A model generated the notes under the pieces. That model searched no databases. It was not told the origin of the DNA and saw only the letters and a list, made by a program, of their open reading frames with translations. DNA of 47,649 bases from an uncultured Elusimicrobia bacterium (GTDB lineage Bacteria; Elusimicrobiota; Elusimicrobia; Elusimicrobiales; UBA9959), in assembly GCA_903873295.1 (NCBI GenBank), contig CAIQNV010000121.1, forward strand, positions 1 through 47,649. The letters run 5' to 3'. Of the stretch, positions 3,801 through 11,145 are shown piece by piece. The first letter of the stretch is position 1; every line of letters begins with the position of its first letter. A program made the translations under genes and the position numbers.

Positions 3801-3963
3801 CGTAACCGTAGTGGATTTTAAGACCGGCGGAGAAAATATAAAAAAATATTCGGCCCAGATGAAAAACTACCTGGCCATTATTTCCGAAGTCTATGCCAGG
3901 CCGGTAAAGGGCGTGCTGGCCTATGTGGACCTGGTTGAGGTCCGCGAAGTCAGAAGCGCATAA
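835..3963 (+). CDS. addA: UvrD/Rep-family helicase-nuclease, AddA/RecB-like
   Basis: A 1042-residue superfamily 1 DNA helicase fused to a RecB-type nuclease, acting in double-strand-break resection. In order: Walker A ASAGSGKT (28-35), motif Ia AVTFTNNAAKEM, Walker B IDEFQDTN (about 375), motif III GDIKQAIYMFRNADY (about 406), motif IV NYRSD (about 458), motif V VMTFHKSKGL (about 740), motif VI in YVISTRARHELY. At the C-terminus (about 975-1020) MDRVLID, VVDFKTGG and a downstream QMKNYL form a PD-(D/E)XK nuclease core of the AddA/RecB type. A four-copy heptamer repeat lies in the middle of the frame. No Shine-Dalgarno is seen before the ATG; TATAAT at 818-823 lies 11 bases upstream, so the mRNA leader is short or absent. 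The likely partner is the AddB-like gene at 32645. The AddA assignment rests on domain order, not on an alignment. Confidence 0.85.
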   Translation: MGKTVKAAVPVLEGDKTLKFPHALLISASAGSGKTYTLTQRYVQFLLSEKVPDNDLSSILAVTFTNNAAKEMKARILACLKELALDKNCQKMEETLELVSLSRDEIHKRAQGLVERIIANYSDFHIQTIDSFLARVMSASADELKLPFRAEITMAYDVLIDLALYSLFSKIGKEELPAETVDKFLAVLPKTGSYPWNPARRVKDNFNSFLTQEGKTAGLIKTSAGDYEAVLKVKFSGALKFCAGLVKHFGAELLKSSSAAAIEAGNLTDFLAAYSFAYGIFNGVKKKSFPADWEKDIAHLSDLVIELTELNAAAYYHPYVGIYDRFKAELERVKRGKTDVIHINDIAKKLSVYINEKNVPEIYLKLGERISHFLIDEFQDTNRLQWDVIRPLAEEALSKTGSLFVVGDIKQAIYMFRNADYRIMRSFLDIAEGRKPKAEYLTLDSLDGELKYVNLPVNYRSDGEVLAYVNTIFKEKLKSVPELIGEDLTELTTYSQSVRPGRLKHGYVRTDTLELEDLSAPDGQKEWLLKAVRGARERYPLNEIAILVAKNKRIEPVVEWLTGAGIPVASLSSLDIRKRKVVAELIACLRFLETPSDDLSFADLITGDIFNRSTGLDREEMLKFIFDSRLPVPGSRLLYSAFRNHPKYKAYWDKYLDEPFRKVGHLPLYELVSLVYGKFELFDNFPEEAAFLSRFLDAVTSLEAEGVTSPRSFIEYASGADEDKAAVFSIALPEYLDAVRVMTFHKSKGLGFSVVINLMYEERGQSDPMYFDEQGGEIHVYHITKAAAEQSVKLRPVYESRRTDGNVQDLNILYVISTRARHELYNLIIKKTRKAAAKEPKPADLFETFEAGTPEARRPERRTASKPVEIVSPGARPEQRFDAQKPTYNGFFETAEGELVHDMLAHLAPGSRTLLAAQLEELYSAYAPEYPFKFDKAKVVKGLLAFLASPEAAPLFAAVPGRQTLVEAEFIDKAGALFRMDRVLIDADAVTVVDFKTGGENIKKYSAQMKNYLAIISEVYARPVKGVLAYVDLVEVREVRSA
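2717..2744 (+). repeat. Four-copy heptamer tandem repeat inside the AddA-like gene
   Basis: Units are CCCGGCT, CCCGGTT, CCCGGCT, CCCGGCT, back to back. The unit is 7 bases, so gain or loss of one copy shifts the helicase frame. It encodes an arginine/leucine/proline/glycine-rich bridge between helicase motifs. Confidence 0.85.
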
Positions 3964-4059
3964 ATTTAAAATTATAAAAAACTATCCGACACGCCCTTGG
4001 CCGTCTGATGCGCATAGCGCTTGTTACGGCAGGGCCATAGGCCACACGGGTTTGTCTGC

Positions 4060-4065
4060 TATACT
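4060..4065 (+). promoter_or_regulatory. -10 box directly before recQ start
   Basis: TATACT ends seven bases before the ATG at 4073, which would start the transcript at or next to the start codon. The -35 position (about ATAGGC) is poor, so this is supported mainly by its parallel to 41584-41612 and 32482-32510. Confidence 0.4.
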
Positions 4066-4072
4066 ATATTTG

Positions 4073-5926
4073 ATGAAACCGGAAGAAATATTGAAGAAGC
4101 GCTGGGGTTACGATACCTTTAAGCCGCTGCAGAAAGAGGCCATCGAGGCGGCGCTCGGGGGCCGGGACTGCCTTGTCGTGCTGCCCACCGGCGGCGGAAA
4201 AAGCCTGTGCTACCAGATGCCCGCGGCTATGGGCCGGGGCCTTGTGCTGGTAGTGTCGCCGCTTATAGCCCTGATGGACGACCAGGTGGCTGCCGCGCGC
4301 GAGGCCGGACTTGCCGCCGACGCCCTGCATTCTAATTTAAAAGCCGGCCCCAAAAAAGCCGCCTACCAGAACCTCGCCGACGGAACCACGGAGCTGCTCT
4401 ATGTCAGCCCCGAGCGCCTGCTGACGGGCGACCTGTATGAAACTCTGGCCCCGCGCCTGATACTTGCCGCCGTGGACGAGGCGCACTGCGTCTCCCACTG
4501 GGGCCACGAGTTCCGCCCCGAATACCGCCGCCTTACCGAGGCGCTGGACCGGTTTCCCAAGGCCGCCCGCATGGCCCTCACCGCCACCGCCACCCCCGTA
4601 GTACAGGCCGATATCCGCGCCCAACTGGCGCTGCGGTCTCCGGAAATCCTGATAGGCCATCCTGACCGCCCCAATCTGATCTATCGCGCCTTCCCGCGCC
4701 GCGACCAGAGCAAGCAGGTGCTGGAGGTCGTGCGCGCCCACAAGAGCGAGGGAGGGATAGTTTACGCCCAGACCCGCAAGGATGTGGAGCGCCTGGCCGC
4801 TAACCTGAAGAAGGAAGGCGTTTCCAGCGCCGCTTACCATGCCGGGCTCAACGCCGAGGAAAGGCGCAAGGCGCAGGACGATTTTGTCAACGAGCGGCTG
4901 GATGTTATCGTAGCCACTATAGCCTTCGGCATGGGCATAGACCGCTCCAATGTGCGCTATGTGGTGCACGCCAACACGCCGCGCTCGGTGGAGCATTACC
5001 AGCAGGAGAGCGGCCGCGCCGGGCGCGACGGCCAGCCCGCCGACTGCACCCTGCTTTTTTCAGCCTCCGACCTGGCCATGCACCGCTGGATGGCCAAGAA
5101 AGACGTCACGCTTTCCCCCGAGCGGGAGCGCGCGCTTGAAAAACAGCTGCGCGATATAGGCCGCTATGCAGTGGCCCCGGTCTGCCGCCACAGCCAGCTG
5201 GCCGAGCATTTCAGCGCCCCCTATCCTGTCGAAGCCAGGGCGGAGGAAGGCTGCGGCGCCTGCGACGTGTGTCTGGGCGAGACCAAGGGCCTGCCCGACG
5301 ACGAGGCCATTCTTACGGCCAAGAAAGTTTTAAGCGCCGCCTGGCGCGCCGAGGGCCGCTACGGCACCGGCTATGTGGTGAATTTACTGCTGGGCCGGCC
5401 CAACGACCGCATGACCAATAACGGTCACGACCAGCTTAAGGTCTTCGGGCTGCTTAAAGAGGCAGGGGAACCCGCCGTCAGGTCCTGGATAGACCAGCTT
5501 ATCGTGCAGGACTACCTTGAGGTGACGGAGGAAAACGAATACCCGCTGCTGCGCATCACCGCCGCCGGGCGCGCTCTCTGCCAGGACAAAGGCACGGTGC
5601 GTCTGGGCCTGCCCGTGCCGCCCAAGGCCGGCAAGAAAAAATCCAAGGCCGTGCAAAAAGCGGAAAAGGCCGGCGTGGCTTTCCTCGAGACCGACAAAGA
5701 CCTGTTCGAAAAACTGCGCGCCCTGCGCCGCGGAGTGGCGGACAAGAAGGGTATCCCTCCTTATGTCATCTGCCACGATACCGTACTTATAGAAATGGCC
5801 GCGACAAAACCCCGGACCCTGGACGAGCTGCGCGGCATGAAGGGCATGGGCGAGAAGCGCGTGGAGAAATACGGCCAGCTCTTCCTGGACGTCATAGCCG
5901 ACAAGCATGAAGTTCCGCAGGAGTAG
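4073..5926 (+). CDS. recQ: ATP-dependent DNA helicase RecQ
   Basis: A 617-residue 3'-5' helicase of recombination and fork repair. Visible are Walker A (LPTGGGKSLCYQMPA), a DEAH-type motif II (AVDEAHCVSHWGHEF), motif VI (QESGRAGRDGQ), the RecQ zinc site (a cysteine before RHSQL, then CGACDVC), a winged-helix RQC region, and a C-terminal HRDC domain (LRALRRGVADKKGIPPYVI). I start at ATG 4073 (MKPEEILKKRWGY), where RecQ homology begins; the frame is open further back but that overlaps the helicase gene upstream and reads as unrelated residues. There is no Shine-Dalgarno; TATACT at 4060-4065 sits seven bases before the ATG, suggesting a leaderless transcript. It is convergent with the ABC permease gene at 5949. 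Confidence 0.95.
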   Translation: MKPEEILKKRWGYDTFKPLQKEAIEAALGGRDCLVVLPTGGGKSLCYQMPAAMGRGLVLVVSPLIALMDDQVAAAREAGLAADALHSNLKAGPKKAAYQNLADGTTELLYVSPERLLTGDLYETLAPRLILAAVDEAHCVSHWGHEFRPEYRRLTEALDRFPKAARMALTATATPVVQADIRAQLALRSPEILIGHPDRPNLIYRAFPRRDQSKQVLEVVRAHKSEGGIVYAQTRKDVERLAANLKKEGVSSAAYHAGLNAEERRKAQDDFVNERLDVIVATIAFGMGIDRSNVRYVVHANTPRSVEHYQQESGRAGRDGQPADCTLLFSASDLAMHRWMAKKDVTLSPERERALEKQLRDIGRYAVAPVCRHSQLAEHFSAPYPVEARAEEGCGACDVCLGETKGLPDDEAILTAKKVLSAAWRAEGRYGTGYVVNLLLGRPNDRMTNNGHDQLKVFGLLKEAGEPAVRSWIDQLIVQDYLEVTEENEYPLLRITAAGRALCQDKGTVRLGLPVPPKAGKKKSKAVQKAEKAGVAFLETDKDLFEKLRALRRGVADKKGIPPYVICHDTVLIEMAATKPRTLDELRGMKGMGEKRVEKYGQLFLDVIADKHEVPQE

Positions 5927-9229: not shown

Positions 9230-9997
9230 TTAGCGGGCTTGGTGGAGCTGTATTCCGGCGGCTATGGCTTGTGCCATCTTTTCCTGCCCTTCTTCGGATT
9301 TTATAAAAGCGGCGTCGTGCTTGTCGGTGAGCACGGCCATTTCTATGGTGAGGGTGGGGATCTTCGAGAAAATAGAGAAGGTCAGCGCGCCCTGGTTCGA
9401 TCCCACCTTGGTCGCCGAGTCTCCCTTCACTCCCAGGTCGGCCAGGCTGCCGGAAAGTTTTTCCTGCATACCCTTCTGTACGGCCAGGGCTAAAACCAGG
9501 CTTTCCTCTATCACCCGTGAGGAGGGCCCCTTAAAGCCATTGTCGGGGTCGTCCTTGTAATCGAATACTCCCTGCCGGTCCGGGTAATAAAGCGTAAAGC
9601 CGCTGCCCGGAGAGCTTTCGCAGTGGAGATGCACGCACAGCGCAGCGCCGGCGCTGTTGGCCATGAGCGCCCGGTCCTTATTCTCCACCGGTTGGAGTTC
9701 TTCCGACCTGGTCAGCAGCACATCAAAACCTTTTTCTTTCAATATGCTTTCAAGTTTTAGAGCGACCTGCCAGTTTATGCGCGTCTCGGTCGTTCCGTTT
9801 ACGGGCTCCAGGCCGCTGTTGAAGCTGTTCGGGTGGCCCGGGTCTACGCAGATAAGGCGGCGGGAGTTAACCGCCTGCGGGACCGGGAGCGAAAAAGCCG
9901 CCGTGTCCGGTCCTGGCCCGGCGAACCCGGCGGCGCCGGCGCGCGGCAGGAGGCCGTAGAAAAGTGCGGCTGCTATTAATAAGGTAAGGCGTTTCAT
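9230..9997 (-). CDS. Secreted N-acetylmuramoyl-L-alanine amidase (Amidase_3)
   Basis: A 255-residue zinc hydrolase that cleaves the lactoyl-peptide bond of peptidoglycan. Start chosen at ATG 9997 (MKRLTLLIAAALFYG), which opens a signal peptide ending near GAAG. Family motifs: VDPGH (first zinc His), a glutamate in TTETRINWQ (second ligand), CVHLHCE (third ligand His) and IPTLTIEMAVLTD holding the catalytic Glu. A σ70 promoter lies just upstream with a leader of only about 15 bases and no Shine-Dalgarno. An export signal plus complete catalytic residues indicate an active periplasmic enzyme. Confidence 0.9.
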   Translation of the reverse strand: MKRLTLLIAAALFYGLLPRAGAAGFAGPGPDTAAFSLPVPQAVNSRRLICVDPGHPNSFNSGLEPVNGTTETRINWQVALKLESILKEKGFDVLLTRSEELQPVENKDRALMANSAGAALCVHLHCESSPGSGFTLYYPDRQGVFDYKDDPDNGFKGPSSRVIEESLVLALAVQKGMQEKLSGSLADLGVKGDSATKVGSNQGALTFSIFSKIPTLTIEMAVLTDKHDAAFIKSEEGQEKMAQAIAAGIQLHQAR

Positions 9998-10018
9998 ATA
10001 GCGCGTTGCGTACAATAA

Positions 10019-10046
10019 ATTTTAACAGTTCTTAATTTATTGTCAA
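10019..10046 (-). promoter_or_regulatory. σ70 promoter of the amidase gene
   Basis: Minus strand: TTGACA (10041-10046), 16-base spacer, TAAAAT (10019-10024). Predicted start near 10012, about 15 bases before ATG 9997. Confidence 0.65.
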
Positions 10047-10070
10047 GGGCCGAAAGGTAGCGGATTTTGA

Positions 10071-10125
10071 ATTAAGGTGACACACAACTTAATTTAATAG
10101 AAATTAAGTTGTGTGTCACTTTAAT
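10071..10125. repeat. Nearly perfect 55-nt inverted repeat (25-nt arms)
   Basis: The arms 10071-10095 and 10101-10125 are reverse complements except for one mismatch; the loop is AATAG. The core of the arm is GTGACACACAACTTAATTT. It is AT-rich in a GC-rich region and lies between two divergent promoters. Without a U-run it is not a classical terminator. It looks like an interspersed hairpin repeat or a miniature mobile element. Confidence 0.85.
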
Positions 10126-10198
10126 CGGCGCCGGCGGCTGGTCTCCGTCGTGAAATGTCGGTTTCAGGCTGCTTGAAAAAATATTTTTATTTACCCCC

Positions 10199-10227
10199 TT
10201 GACAAGTCAACATCCGCCTGTTATACT
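10199..10227 (+). promoter_or_regulatory. Strong σ70 promoter upstream of the structured RNA
   Basis: TTGACA (10199-10204), exactly 17 bases, TATACT (10222-10227): the best promoter in the window. Predicted start near 10234. No gene with a credible protein begins within 500 bases. Confidence 0.8.
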
Positions 10228-10233
10228 CGGTAT

Positions 10234-10660
10234 GTAGTCTTGCTCTCTTACAAATGCGTCGGCGGTGTAGTCGAGATGATCTCGGGAGTTGCGGTCGAGC
10301 TGGTCTCGGTAGTGCGGTACGGCCCGCGGGGTTCATCCCCCGGCCCACGACGCGGTTTCCCCCGGTTCGCGGCCAGCGTCAGCGCGGTGCCTTAGCGGTG
10401 TCGGCAGCGGCGCGATCGTCGGGGTGTTCCCCGGTACGTCTCCCCCACTTTTGTGGGGCGCGGTCGCCGGGGCCCTGGTTCAGCGGCCCGCCATGGGCGG
10501 TGCGGCTCCCGGGTGGGTGTTCCGGCCCTCGGTCTCCGGCGCTAATGCGCCTCTTGGTTCCCGGCTCGCCCCTGAAGTGGTCCGTAGTCTGCGGTCATCA
10601 AGTACCCTGGCCTGTGTGCCAATTGAAGAGCCTCCGTACGCGGGGGCTCTCAATTTATAT
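10234..10660 (+). ncRNA. Candidate structured non-coding RNA of about 420 nt, unknown class
   Basis: The stretch follows a consensus promoter, is very GC-rich and holds many pairings. A GCGTCG/CGACGC helix (10256-10261 with 10348-10353) encloses three hairpins, two of which lie in adjacent near-identical 24-nt repeats (10270-10293, 10294-10317). A nested stem follows: CCCCGG (10429-10434) with CCGGGG (10467-10472), capped by CCCCAC-TTTT-GTGGGG (10443-10458). GGCGC-TAAT-GCGCC lies near 10538-10551. A long terminal stem spans 10621-10655. The reading frames crossing it are Arg/Pro/Cys/Ser-rich and lack ribosome sites. I do not see the signatures of RNase P RNA (GAAAGTCC, ACAGAA), tmRNA (terminal CCA arm), SRP RNA or a standard 6S bubble. 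Promoter and folds are seen; RNA function is inference. Confidence 0.6.
10621..10655 (+). terminator. Terminal stem-loop of the candidate RNA
   Basis: AATTG and AGAGCC pair with GGCTCT and CAATT, continued by CCG/CGG around a TACG loop. A weak AT-rich tract (TATAT) follows instead of a long U-run, so it is either an imperfect terminator or the 3' structural helix. Confidence 0.5.
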
Positions 10661-10782
10661 CCCCTTAAAACAGCCGTCTTTTAAATGGCGGGCATAGTCT
10701 TAAAGATGTAGAATTTCAGAAGAGAATTGCCGGCCTGAAAAATGTGCGTTTACCTGAAGCAGCTTCAAATAAAGGAGATCTT

Positions 10783-11145
10783 ATGAAATTTTGCTGGTGC
10801 ACGGTCTGGGTTAAGGACATGGAGGCTTCGCTGAGGTTTTACCAGGAGGTCGTGGGGCTTCCTCTCAGCAGGCGGTTCGCCTCCGGGCAGGGGATGGAGA
10901 TCTGTTTCCTGGGCGCGGGGGAAACCCAGGTTGAGCTTATTTGCGGGCCGACCCATAAGGTTCCTGCCGACGCGGAAGGTATTTCTCTGGGTTTTAAGGT
11001 TAAGTCGCTGGATGAAACGCTAAGGTTCGTAAAGGAAAAGGGGGTGGCGGTGGCCAGCGGCCCTTTCCAGCCTAATCCGCATATCAAGTTCTTTTATGTT
11101 AAAGATCCCGACGGGGTCAGCGTGCAATTCGTGGAGAACATGTAG
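10783..11145 (+). CDS. VOC/glyoxalase-superfamily protein
   Basis: A 120-residue single-module vicinal-oxygen-chelate protein with two βαβββ halves: FCWCTVWVKDMEASLRFYQEVVG at the start and VKDPDGVSVQFVE at the end. I start at ATG 10783, which has AAAGGAG six bases upstream; the earlier in-frame ATG at 10744 lacks a ribosome site. Family members bind a divalent metal and act as lyases, isomerases, dioxygenases or resistance proteins; the reaction here cannot be named. It is 33 bases ahead of the ABC gene at 11179 and may share its transcript. Confidence 0.85.
   Translation: MKFCWCTVWVKDMEASLRFYQEVVGLPLSRRFASGQGMEICFLGAGETQVELICGPTHKVPADAEGISLGFKVKSLDETLRFVKEKGVAVASGPFQPNPHIKFFYVKDPDGVSVQFVENM

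Follow-up and report, generated by a model that had tools for sequence, protein, structure and literature searches.

A predicted family of noncoding RNA genes behind a palindromic promoter in a genus of Elusimicrobiota

CsrB, RsmY and RsmZ are noncoding RNAs which occur as several paralogs per genome and titrate the protein CsrA. Their genes have strong, regulated promoters with a palindrome, which in the Rsm RNAs is located far upstream, and an intrinsic terminator; the RNAs carry many copies of a short motif. OLE, ROOL and GOLLD are large, ornate, structured bacterial noncoding RNAs of restricted lineages, and the hallmark of 6S RNA is a long hairpin with one central bubble. To our knowledge, the RNA biology of the Elusimicrobiota has been little studied. 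The FopS RNAs of Bacteroides are paralogous (14 copies), about 65-70 nt long and have the RRM protein RbpB as a partner; their 5' stretch is conserved and single-stranded, a terminator is present and a large folded domain is absent (PMC11697453).

The window, i.e., the whole stretch of DNA analysed here, comprises 47,649 nucleotides of a contig from an uncultured Elusimicrobia bacterium; all coordinates refer to it, and to the plus strand unless stated otherwise. Judged by its sequence, the region 10199-10656 very probably is an independent noncoding RNA gene, composed of a promoter, about 420 nt of GC-rich RNA and an intrinsic terminator, and it belongs to a family of such genes. An earlier note had proposed an RNA gene of no known class at this position. 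The absence of a known class was supported by Rfam 15; the gene is one member of a paralogous family with three copies in this genome.

The RNA gene, its limits and its class

A BLAST search over 61 genomes located the RNA in 31 of the 32 genomes of the same genus and in none of the 29 others. A profile search of the fetched loci yielded 69 copies in these 31 genomes: eight genomes have one copy, ten have two, twelve have three and one has five, numbers which are lower bounds because most of the genomes are drafts. The window RNA is one of the three paralogs of its own genome. The full-length set used below consists of 62 copies, 59 delimited by the profile and three (L057, L095, L098) by hand; the alignment excludes seven partial matches (six loci), the majority of which are truncated at contig ends. 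The length of the RNA has a median of about 390 nt and ranges from 189 to 456 nt in these 62 copies.

The promoter starts with TTGACA at 10199-10204, followed after a 17-nt spacer by TATACT at 10222-10227; a TG at 10219-10220 extends the -10 element (TG-T-TATACT, 10219-10227), and 11 of 12 positions match the consensus. Between 9900 and 10900 five promoter-like sites were found vs 0.5 in shuffled sequence. The -35 hexamer is part of a near-invariant palindrome, TTGACAAGTCAA (10199-10210), which is exactly preserved in 60 of the 62 full copies; the combination TTGACAAGTCAA-N7-CTGTTATA is exact in 56. Start of the RNA is expected near 10233-10234. At its 3' end is an intrinsic terminator, a hairpin with a T-rich tail (10622-10656), the stem of which spans 10627-10650 and can be extended to 10622-10654. 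The hairpin-plus-T pattern is present in 62/62 copies; a simple terminator scan alone was not above chance (2 found, 1.5 expected). Thus, TTGACA-17-TATACT as promoter of an RNA gene of about 420 nt and the 3' terminal stem, both claimed in the earlier note, were borne out, the latter as a terminator hairpin.

Two sequence features lie just upstream. On the minus strand, a promoter-like TTGACA-16-TAAAAT at 10019-10046 precedes a divergent amidase gene (9230-10015). At 10068-10127 a near-perfect inverted repeat with the arms AGGTGACACACAACTTAATT and AAGTGACACACAACTTAATT shortly precedes the RNA promoter. It is a dispersed palindromic element: allowing one mismatch at most, its arms match 22 times in genome G082, 7 times in G002, 3 times in the own genome, twice in G027 and not at all in G019. 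In L110/L261 one arm also lies right behind the related RNA.

A protein gene was considered and rejected. The longest ORF across the RNA, 10254-10697, has 147 aa and no Pfam match. Compared with 11 homologs over 10254-10640, substitutions at codon positions 1, 2 and 3 number 170, 182 and 206, a slight excess at the third position, and of 131 indels 116 have lengths not divisible by 3, i.e., the frame of the ORF is not kept. This agrees with the original impression that no credible protein is encoded here.

Known RNA classes were likewise rejected. At gathering score Rfam 15 has no family on the RNA; the sole match in the window is a c-di-AMP riboswitch (ydaO/yuaA) at 564-722 on the minus strand, 63.4 bits. 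Below gathering score the RNA gives chance-like matches only, the best being Phe_leader with an E value of 6.7. The covariance models for RNase P RNA (RF00010), tmRNA (RF00023), 6S RNA (RF00013) and the SRP RNA families have no match in the window, in line with the earlier note, which had seen none of their signatures. The own genome encodes its RNase P RNA (G000:C57:15620-15996, 194.9 bits) and its tmRNA (G000:C64:1740-2092, 132.6 bits) elsewhere. The 6S model matched none of 32 genomes, 20 of this genus and 12 of the order, and its control found only 5 of 14 known genomes, so this model misses many. Paper searches returned no report of an Elusimicrobiota RNA among their top-ranked matches. 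Judged by Rfam 15 and these literature matches, this is an unclassified noncoding RNA family.

Recurring loci and phylogenetic range

Clustering of neighbouring genes together with a tree of the RNAs reveals three recurring sites. At locus A a RecQ-like gene is located upstream, within 3.5 kb in 10 loci; at the window copy the RecQ-like ORF (3923-5926) is farther off and the amidase gene adjoins the RNA. Locus B has a polysaccharide deacetylase gene upstream (23 loci), which begins at most about 1.0 kb from the promoter in 17. Locus C (14 loci) is marked by a gene some 1.1 kb upstream for a protein of about 335 aa without Pfam match; a GyrA-like gene frequently lies farther out (8 loci). The names RecQ and GyrA were assigned by eye, and that of the deacetylase comes from a Pfam match of one member. 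The tree broadly agrees with the loci. The exception is L087 (G027:C238), which has an A-type sequence at a locus B site, likely a case of gene conversion between paralogs. Within this genome, the unit TGCGGTCGAGCTGGTCTCGGT is shared by the window copy and the copy at locus C.

These neighbourhoods bear on two readings of the locus. A strong promoter, a structured RNA and a terminator upstream of a same-strand gene (10744-11145, glyoxalase family) are what one would also expect of a cis-acting leader or attenuator. Yet the copies share no downstream gene, no downstream cluster comprising more than 9 of the 69 copies, and at loci B and C it is on the upstream side that neighbours recur. Paralogs at recurring loci which lack a common downstream gene are not the leader of one gene and, with a terminator pattern in every full copy, we consider this reading very improbable. 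A GC-rich dispersed DNA repeat which happens to carry a promoter would equally be multicopy, and would explain the locus-A sequence of L087 at locus B. Against it, syntenic loci recur across the genus, compensatory changes are present (see below), the repeated motif is strand-specific, promoter and terminator are kept together, and viral contigs give three promoter-like matches and no RNA. We consider this reading, too, very improbable.

The promoter pattern, palindrome plus -10 core, was used as a probe of its own. In the own genome it occurs at three sites, which are the three RNA copies, and the reversed control has none. When one genome per species (GTDB 220) was scanned, 77 stretches were returned, 76 of them labelled Elusimicrobia, Elusimicrobiota, Elusimicrobiales or just bacterium, and one from a Clostridia MAG. 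By profile the RNA is present in 67 of the 77 (57 at >=120 bits and 10 at 58-108 bits, some cut); nine lack it, and one more is truncated too far for a decision.

The covariance model R2, built from 34 sequences of the P3-P5 core, matches 34 of the 59 genomes of the family, i.e., 29/32 in the genus and 3/3 and 2/4 in two further genera. Across the phylum, with strict filters, it matches 34/340 genomes and 3/100 genera. This range is a lower bound because R2 scores locus-C copies weakly, leaving some out, and skips diverged relatives, not reporting L106, L116, L159, L157 and L120. Within the range searched, the 'lineage-specific' RNA of the earlier note is an apt description, with 31 of 32 genomes in the genus and 3 of 100 genera in the phylum.

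Some relatives differ considerably. L120 and L168/L060 are shorter and strongly diverged, have the same promoter and, downstream of each, an ORF whose start resembles a signal peptide; possibly they represent a fourth locus type. The diverged relatives L106, L116 and L159 have 11-16 GCGGU copies each.

A conserved fold

The fold of the single window sequence has an energy of -199.1 kcal/mol, no better than that of shuffled sequences (z -0.77; 23 of 100 as good); consequently, energy alone does not demonstrate a highly structured RNA. A first core alignment with all paralog types (A1) gave a poor consensus, with 1 of 16 pairs doubly changed, and was replaced by alignments of A and B copies alone (A2, A3) and by model R2. 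For the 37 A/B copies of the consensus alignment the picture changes. Their consensus fold has -201.1 kcal/mol vs -145.3 (sd 6.4) in 20 column shuffles. It comprises 101 pairs with 89.4% of the cells paired; 28 pairs show a double change vs 20.3 expected, and doubly changed cells number 113 vs 43.7 (sd 5.3), a value reached by none of 500 shuffles. Sliding the partners by 1-3 columns lowers pairing to 40-50%. These shuffle controls ignore relatedness, and the alignment tested is also the one from which the structure had been derived. A phylogeny-aware test of all column pairs in the 62 copies gave no pair at E <0.05 (best 0.6); its three best pairs lie in the predicted structure. Restricted to 88 structure pairs, four pass, two of them in the terminator. 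Because the shuffle controls pass and the stricter test supports few pairs, a conserved fold is well supported by the comparison of sequences, and single pairs much less so. 'Highly structured', as the RNA had been called, hence holds by comparison of homologs and not by single-sequence energy; the compensatory changes which the earlier note had asked for in homologs are present.

The RNA begins with a conserved 5' leader (UGUAGUCUUGCUCUCUU..., 10233-10254), and a leader-like pattern is found in 57 of 62 copies. In the consensus 10238-10254 are unpaired, and 10233-10237 form a weak closing helix with 10589-10593. This leader is the centrepiece of a reading as a paralogous base-pairing sRNA, in which the mostly unpaired UGUAGUCYUGNUCUYU would serve as a seed for repression of mRNAs at start sites and an RRM protein would be the partner, after the model of FopS/RbpB. 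The pattern remains recognisable in relatives outside the genus, and the multicopy layout with a terminator resembles FopS (PMC11697453); the FopS RNAs have about 65-70 nt, however, vs about 420 nt here. Moreover, perfect complements of the 10-nt leader core amount to 12 sites in two genomes, five of which are the RNA genes themselves. The seven non-self sites compare with 10 in the reversed control, and one of the seven is at a possible start codon, a comparison of low power. A base-pairing function of this kind is unlikely in our judgement, but deserves to be kept in mind.

Downstream of the leader, helix P1 (10255-10265 with 10345-10354) encloses the 5' domain (10255-10354), which contains GCGGU and CGAG...CUCG units and a small hairpin (10327-10343). 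The 'closed multi-branch 5' domain' of the earlier note is weakly borne out: helix P1 exists, with 84% of its cells paired, yet it encloses the most variable part of the RNA. The copies have in common the multi-helix part 10360-10573, which starts with helix P2 (10360-10424; 10360-10371 with 10411-10424) and its inner stem 10382-10405. Helix P3 (10429-10472) consists of the stacked stems 10429-10435/10466-10472, 10436-10439/10460-10463 and 10443-10448/10453-10458, and in its apical stem two pairs have 8 doubly changed sequences each. P4 (10474-10513) and P5 (10515-10573) both possess inner stems, and P5 includes the weakest stem of all (72% of cells paired). A short conserved hairpin, UGGC...GCCA (10608-10621), precedes the terminator; it is 98% paired, and one of its pairs has 14 doubly changed sequences.

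With such an architecture one may ask whether the RNA is part of a housekeeping RNP of this lineage, structural or catalytic and comparable to OLE, ROOL or GOLLD, with its function in P2-P5 and with GCGGU as a by-product of repeat slippage. P2-P5 is common to the A/B copies, the P3-P5 model alone matches two further genera, and the 5' domain gains and loses repeat units. Against a housekeeping role stand a copy number of 1 to 5 per genome in 31 drafts (partly a matter of incompleteness), a promoter shared with other genes, and a model that, under strict filters, found nothing in 97 of 100 genera of the phylum. We regard it as distinctly unlikely.

Promoter signature, GCGGU sites and a possible function in trans

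The palindrome is not confined to the RNA genes. In six genomes of the genus TTGACAAGTCAA occurs at 53 sites, 8-10 in each, vs 2 for the reversed control; 19 of these are RNA genes and 34 are others. Recurring other sites precede clostripain-like peptidases, formiminotransferase (FTCD) and a protein of about 310 aa with an N-terminal hydrophobic stretch; single cases include one before a pilin-like protein. Genes were named by Pfam on representatives only, the rest by eye, and sites without a plausible gene or -10 may be chance.

Among 40 palindrome loci scanned, nine have c-di-GMP-I riboswitches, and in eight of the nine the palindrome is positioned 92-207 nt upstream of the aptamer. The combination is found in 4 of 33 loci of the genus and in 4 of 7 scanned non-RNA stretches of the GTDB promoter-pattern scan. 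TTGAC(AA or TT)GTCAA stands upstream of c-di-GMP-I riboswitches in L213, L222, L223 and L228 as well as in L111, L112, L133 and L160; in the four genus loci it lies upstream of a separate -35, and in the other genera it overlaps the -35. All loci were chosen for holding the palindrome, hence the link to c-di-GMP is suggestive only; it hints at a regulator tied to c-di-GMP-controlled genes. A different riboswitch, 2dG-II of the purine class (74.2 bits), is located in L215 at 1126-1196 on the minus strand.

The most over-represented 5-mer of the RNA is GCGGU, with 477 occurrences in the 62 copies vs 109.8 (sd 8.7) in dinucleotide shuffles. It is present in every copy, 2-14 times, at a density of 22.1 per kb vs 2.26 per kb per strand in the searched loci. 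Its Watson-Crick complement ACCGC occurs once vs 9.4 expected, and wobble partners are rare (GCCGC 17 vs 108, GCCGU 18 vs 110 expected); when all G-U partners are counted, the complement depletion of 0.41 ranks only sixth of 47 motifs. Accessibility of GCGGU in single-sequence folds is ordinary, 0.28, with 5-mers of the same composition at 0.15-0.32. On the consensus 60% are unpaired vs 42% for G/C overall, and other motifs are more open. Many sites are positionally homologous and fall within helices or next to them; part of the excess could therefore be due to structure or to the expansion of repeats.

RRM_1 matches are found in 51 of the 59 genomes of the family, and two or more in 20 of the 32 genomes of this genus and 2 of the 27 others. 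Nevertheless, their distribution does not follow that of the RNA: RRM genes are also present in genera without the RNA, and the two further RNA-bearing genera mostly have one.

Tentatively, and by analogy, we favour a protein-titrating or protein-scaffolding RNA which would act in trans via its GCGGU sites, following the logic of CsrB while being unrelated to it; we hold this as quite possible, somewhat short of an even chance. A regulator recognising TTGAC-NN-GTCAA would set transcription of the RNA together with that of some exported-protein and c-di-GMP-riboswitch genes. P2-P5, the compact helices, may shield the RNA or give it a scaffold, and copies of an RNA-binding protein would attach to the repeated GCGGU sites. 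RNA from several loci would then titrate this protein off mRNAs, as CsrB/RsmZ do with CsrA; the small RRM proteins of the family are one candidate partner only. Points in favour are the GCGGU excess in all copies (477 vs 110), the shared palindromic promoter, the paralogs and the terminator. Points against are the ordinary accessibility of GCGGU, the sixth rank of its complement depletion among 47 motifs and the RRM genes which do not follow the RNA. The complete version, an independently evolved sponge in which multicopy GCGGU-array RNAs sequester an RNA-binding protein and share their palindromic promoter with exported-protein and c-di-GMP-riboswitch genes, appears rather doubtful as a whole. 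If true, sponge RNAs would couple surface or lifestyle genes to post-transcriptional control in a circuit like that of CsrB and CsrA, but with a motif and a protein that are both new. As the promoter signature picks out most of the RNA genes, and as a consensus fold and a repeated motif are at hand, partner and targets are directly searchable.

How, then, does the window RNA compare with the systems described at the outset? Like 6S RNA it appears to be independent and strongly promoted, in a lineage without a detected 6S RNA (0/32 genomes with a model of limited sensitivity), but the long hairpin with one central bubble is absent from its consensus. With OLE, ROOL and GOLLD it has in common that it is large, lineage-restricted, structured and noncoding; it differs by the lack of an Rfam match and by several copies per genome behind a shared promoter. 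Like FopS (PMC11697453), it is paralogous, has a conserved, mostly unpaired 5' stretch and a terminator, and belongs to a lineage with RRM proteins; FopS is much shorter and without a large folded domain, and a sequence relation is not claimed. The resemblance to CsrB, RsmY and RsmZ comprises paralogs, strong palindrome-associated promoters, an intrinsic terminator and a dense short motif. Differences are the motif itself, GCGGU and not GGA (1.3 GGA per copy), the missing Rfam match, and the palindrome, which here overlaps the -35 whereas that of the Rsm RNAs is far upstream. Should the window RNA indeed be a sponge, the logic of CsrB would have been reached with a different motif.
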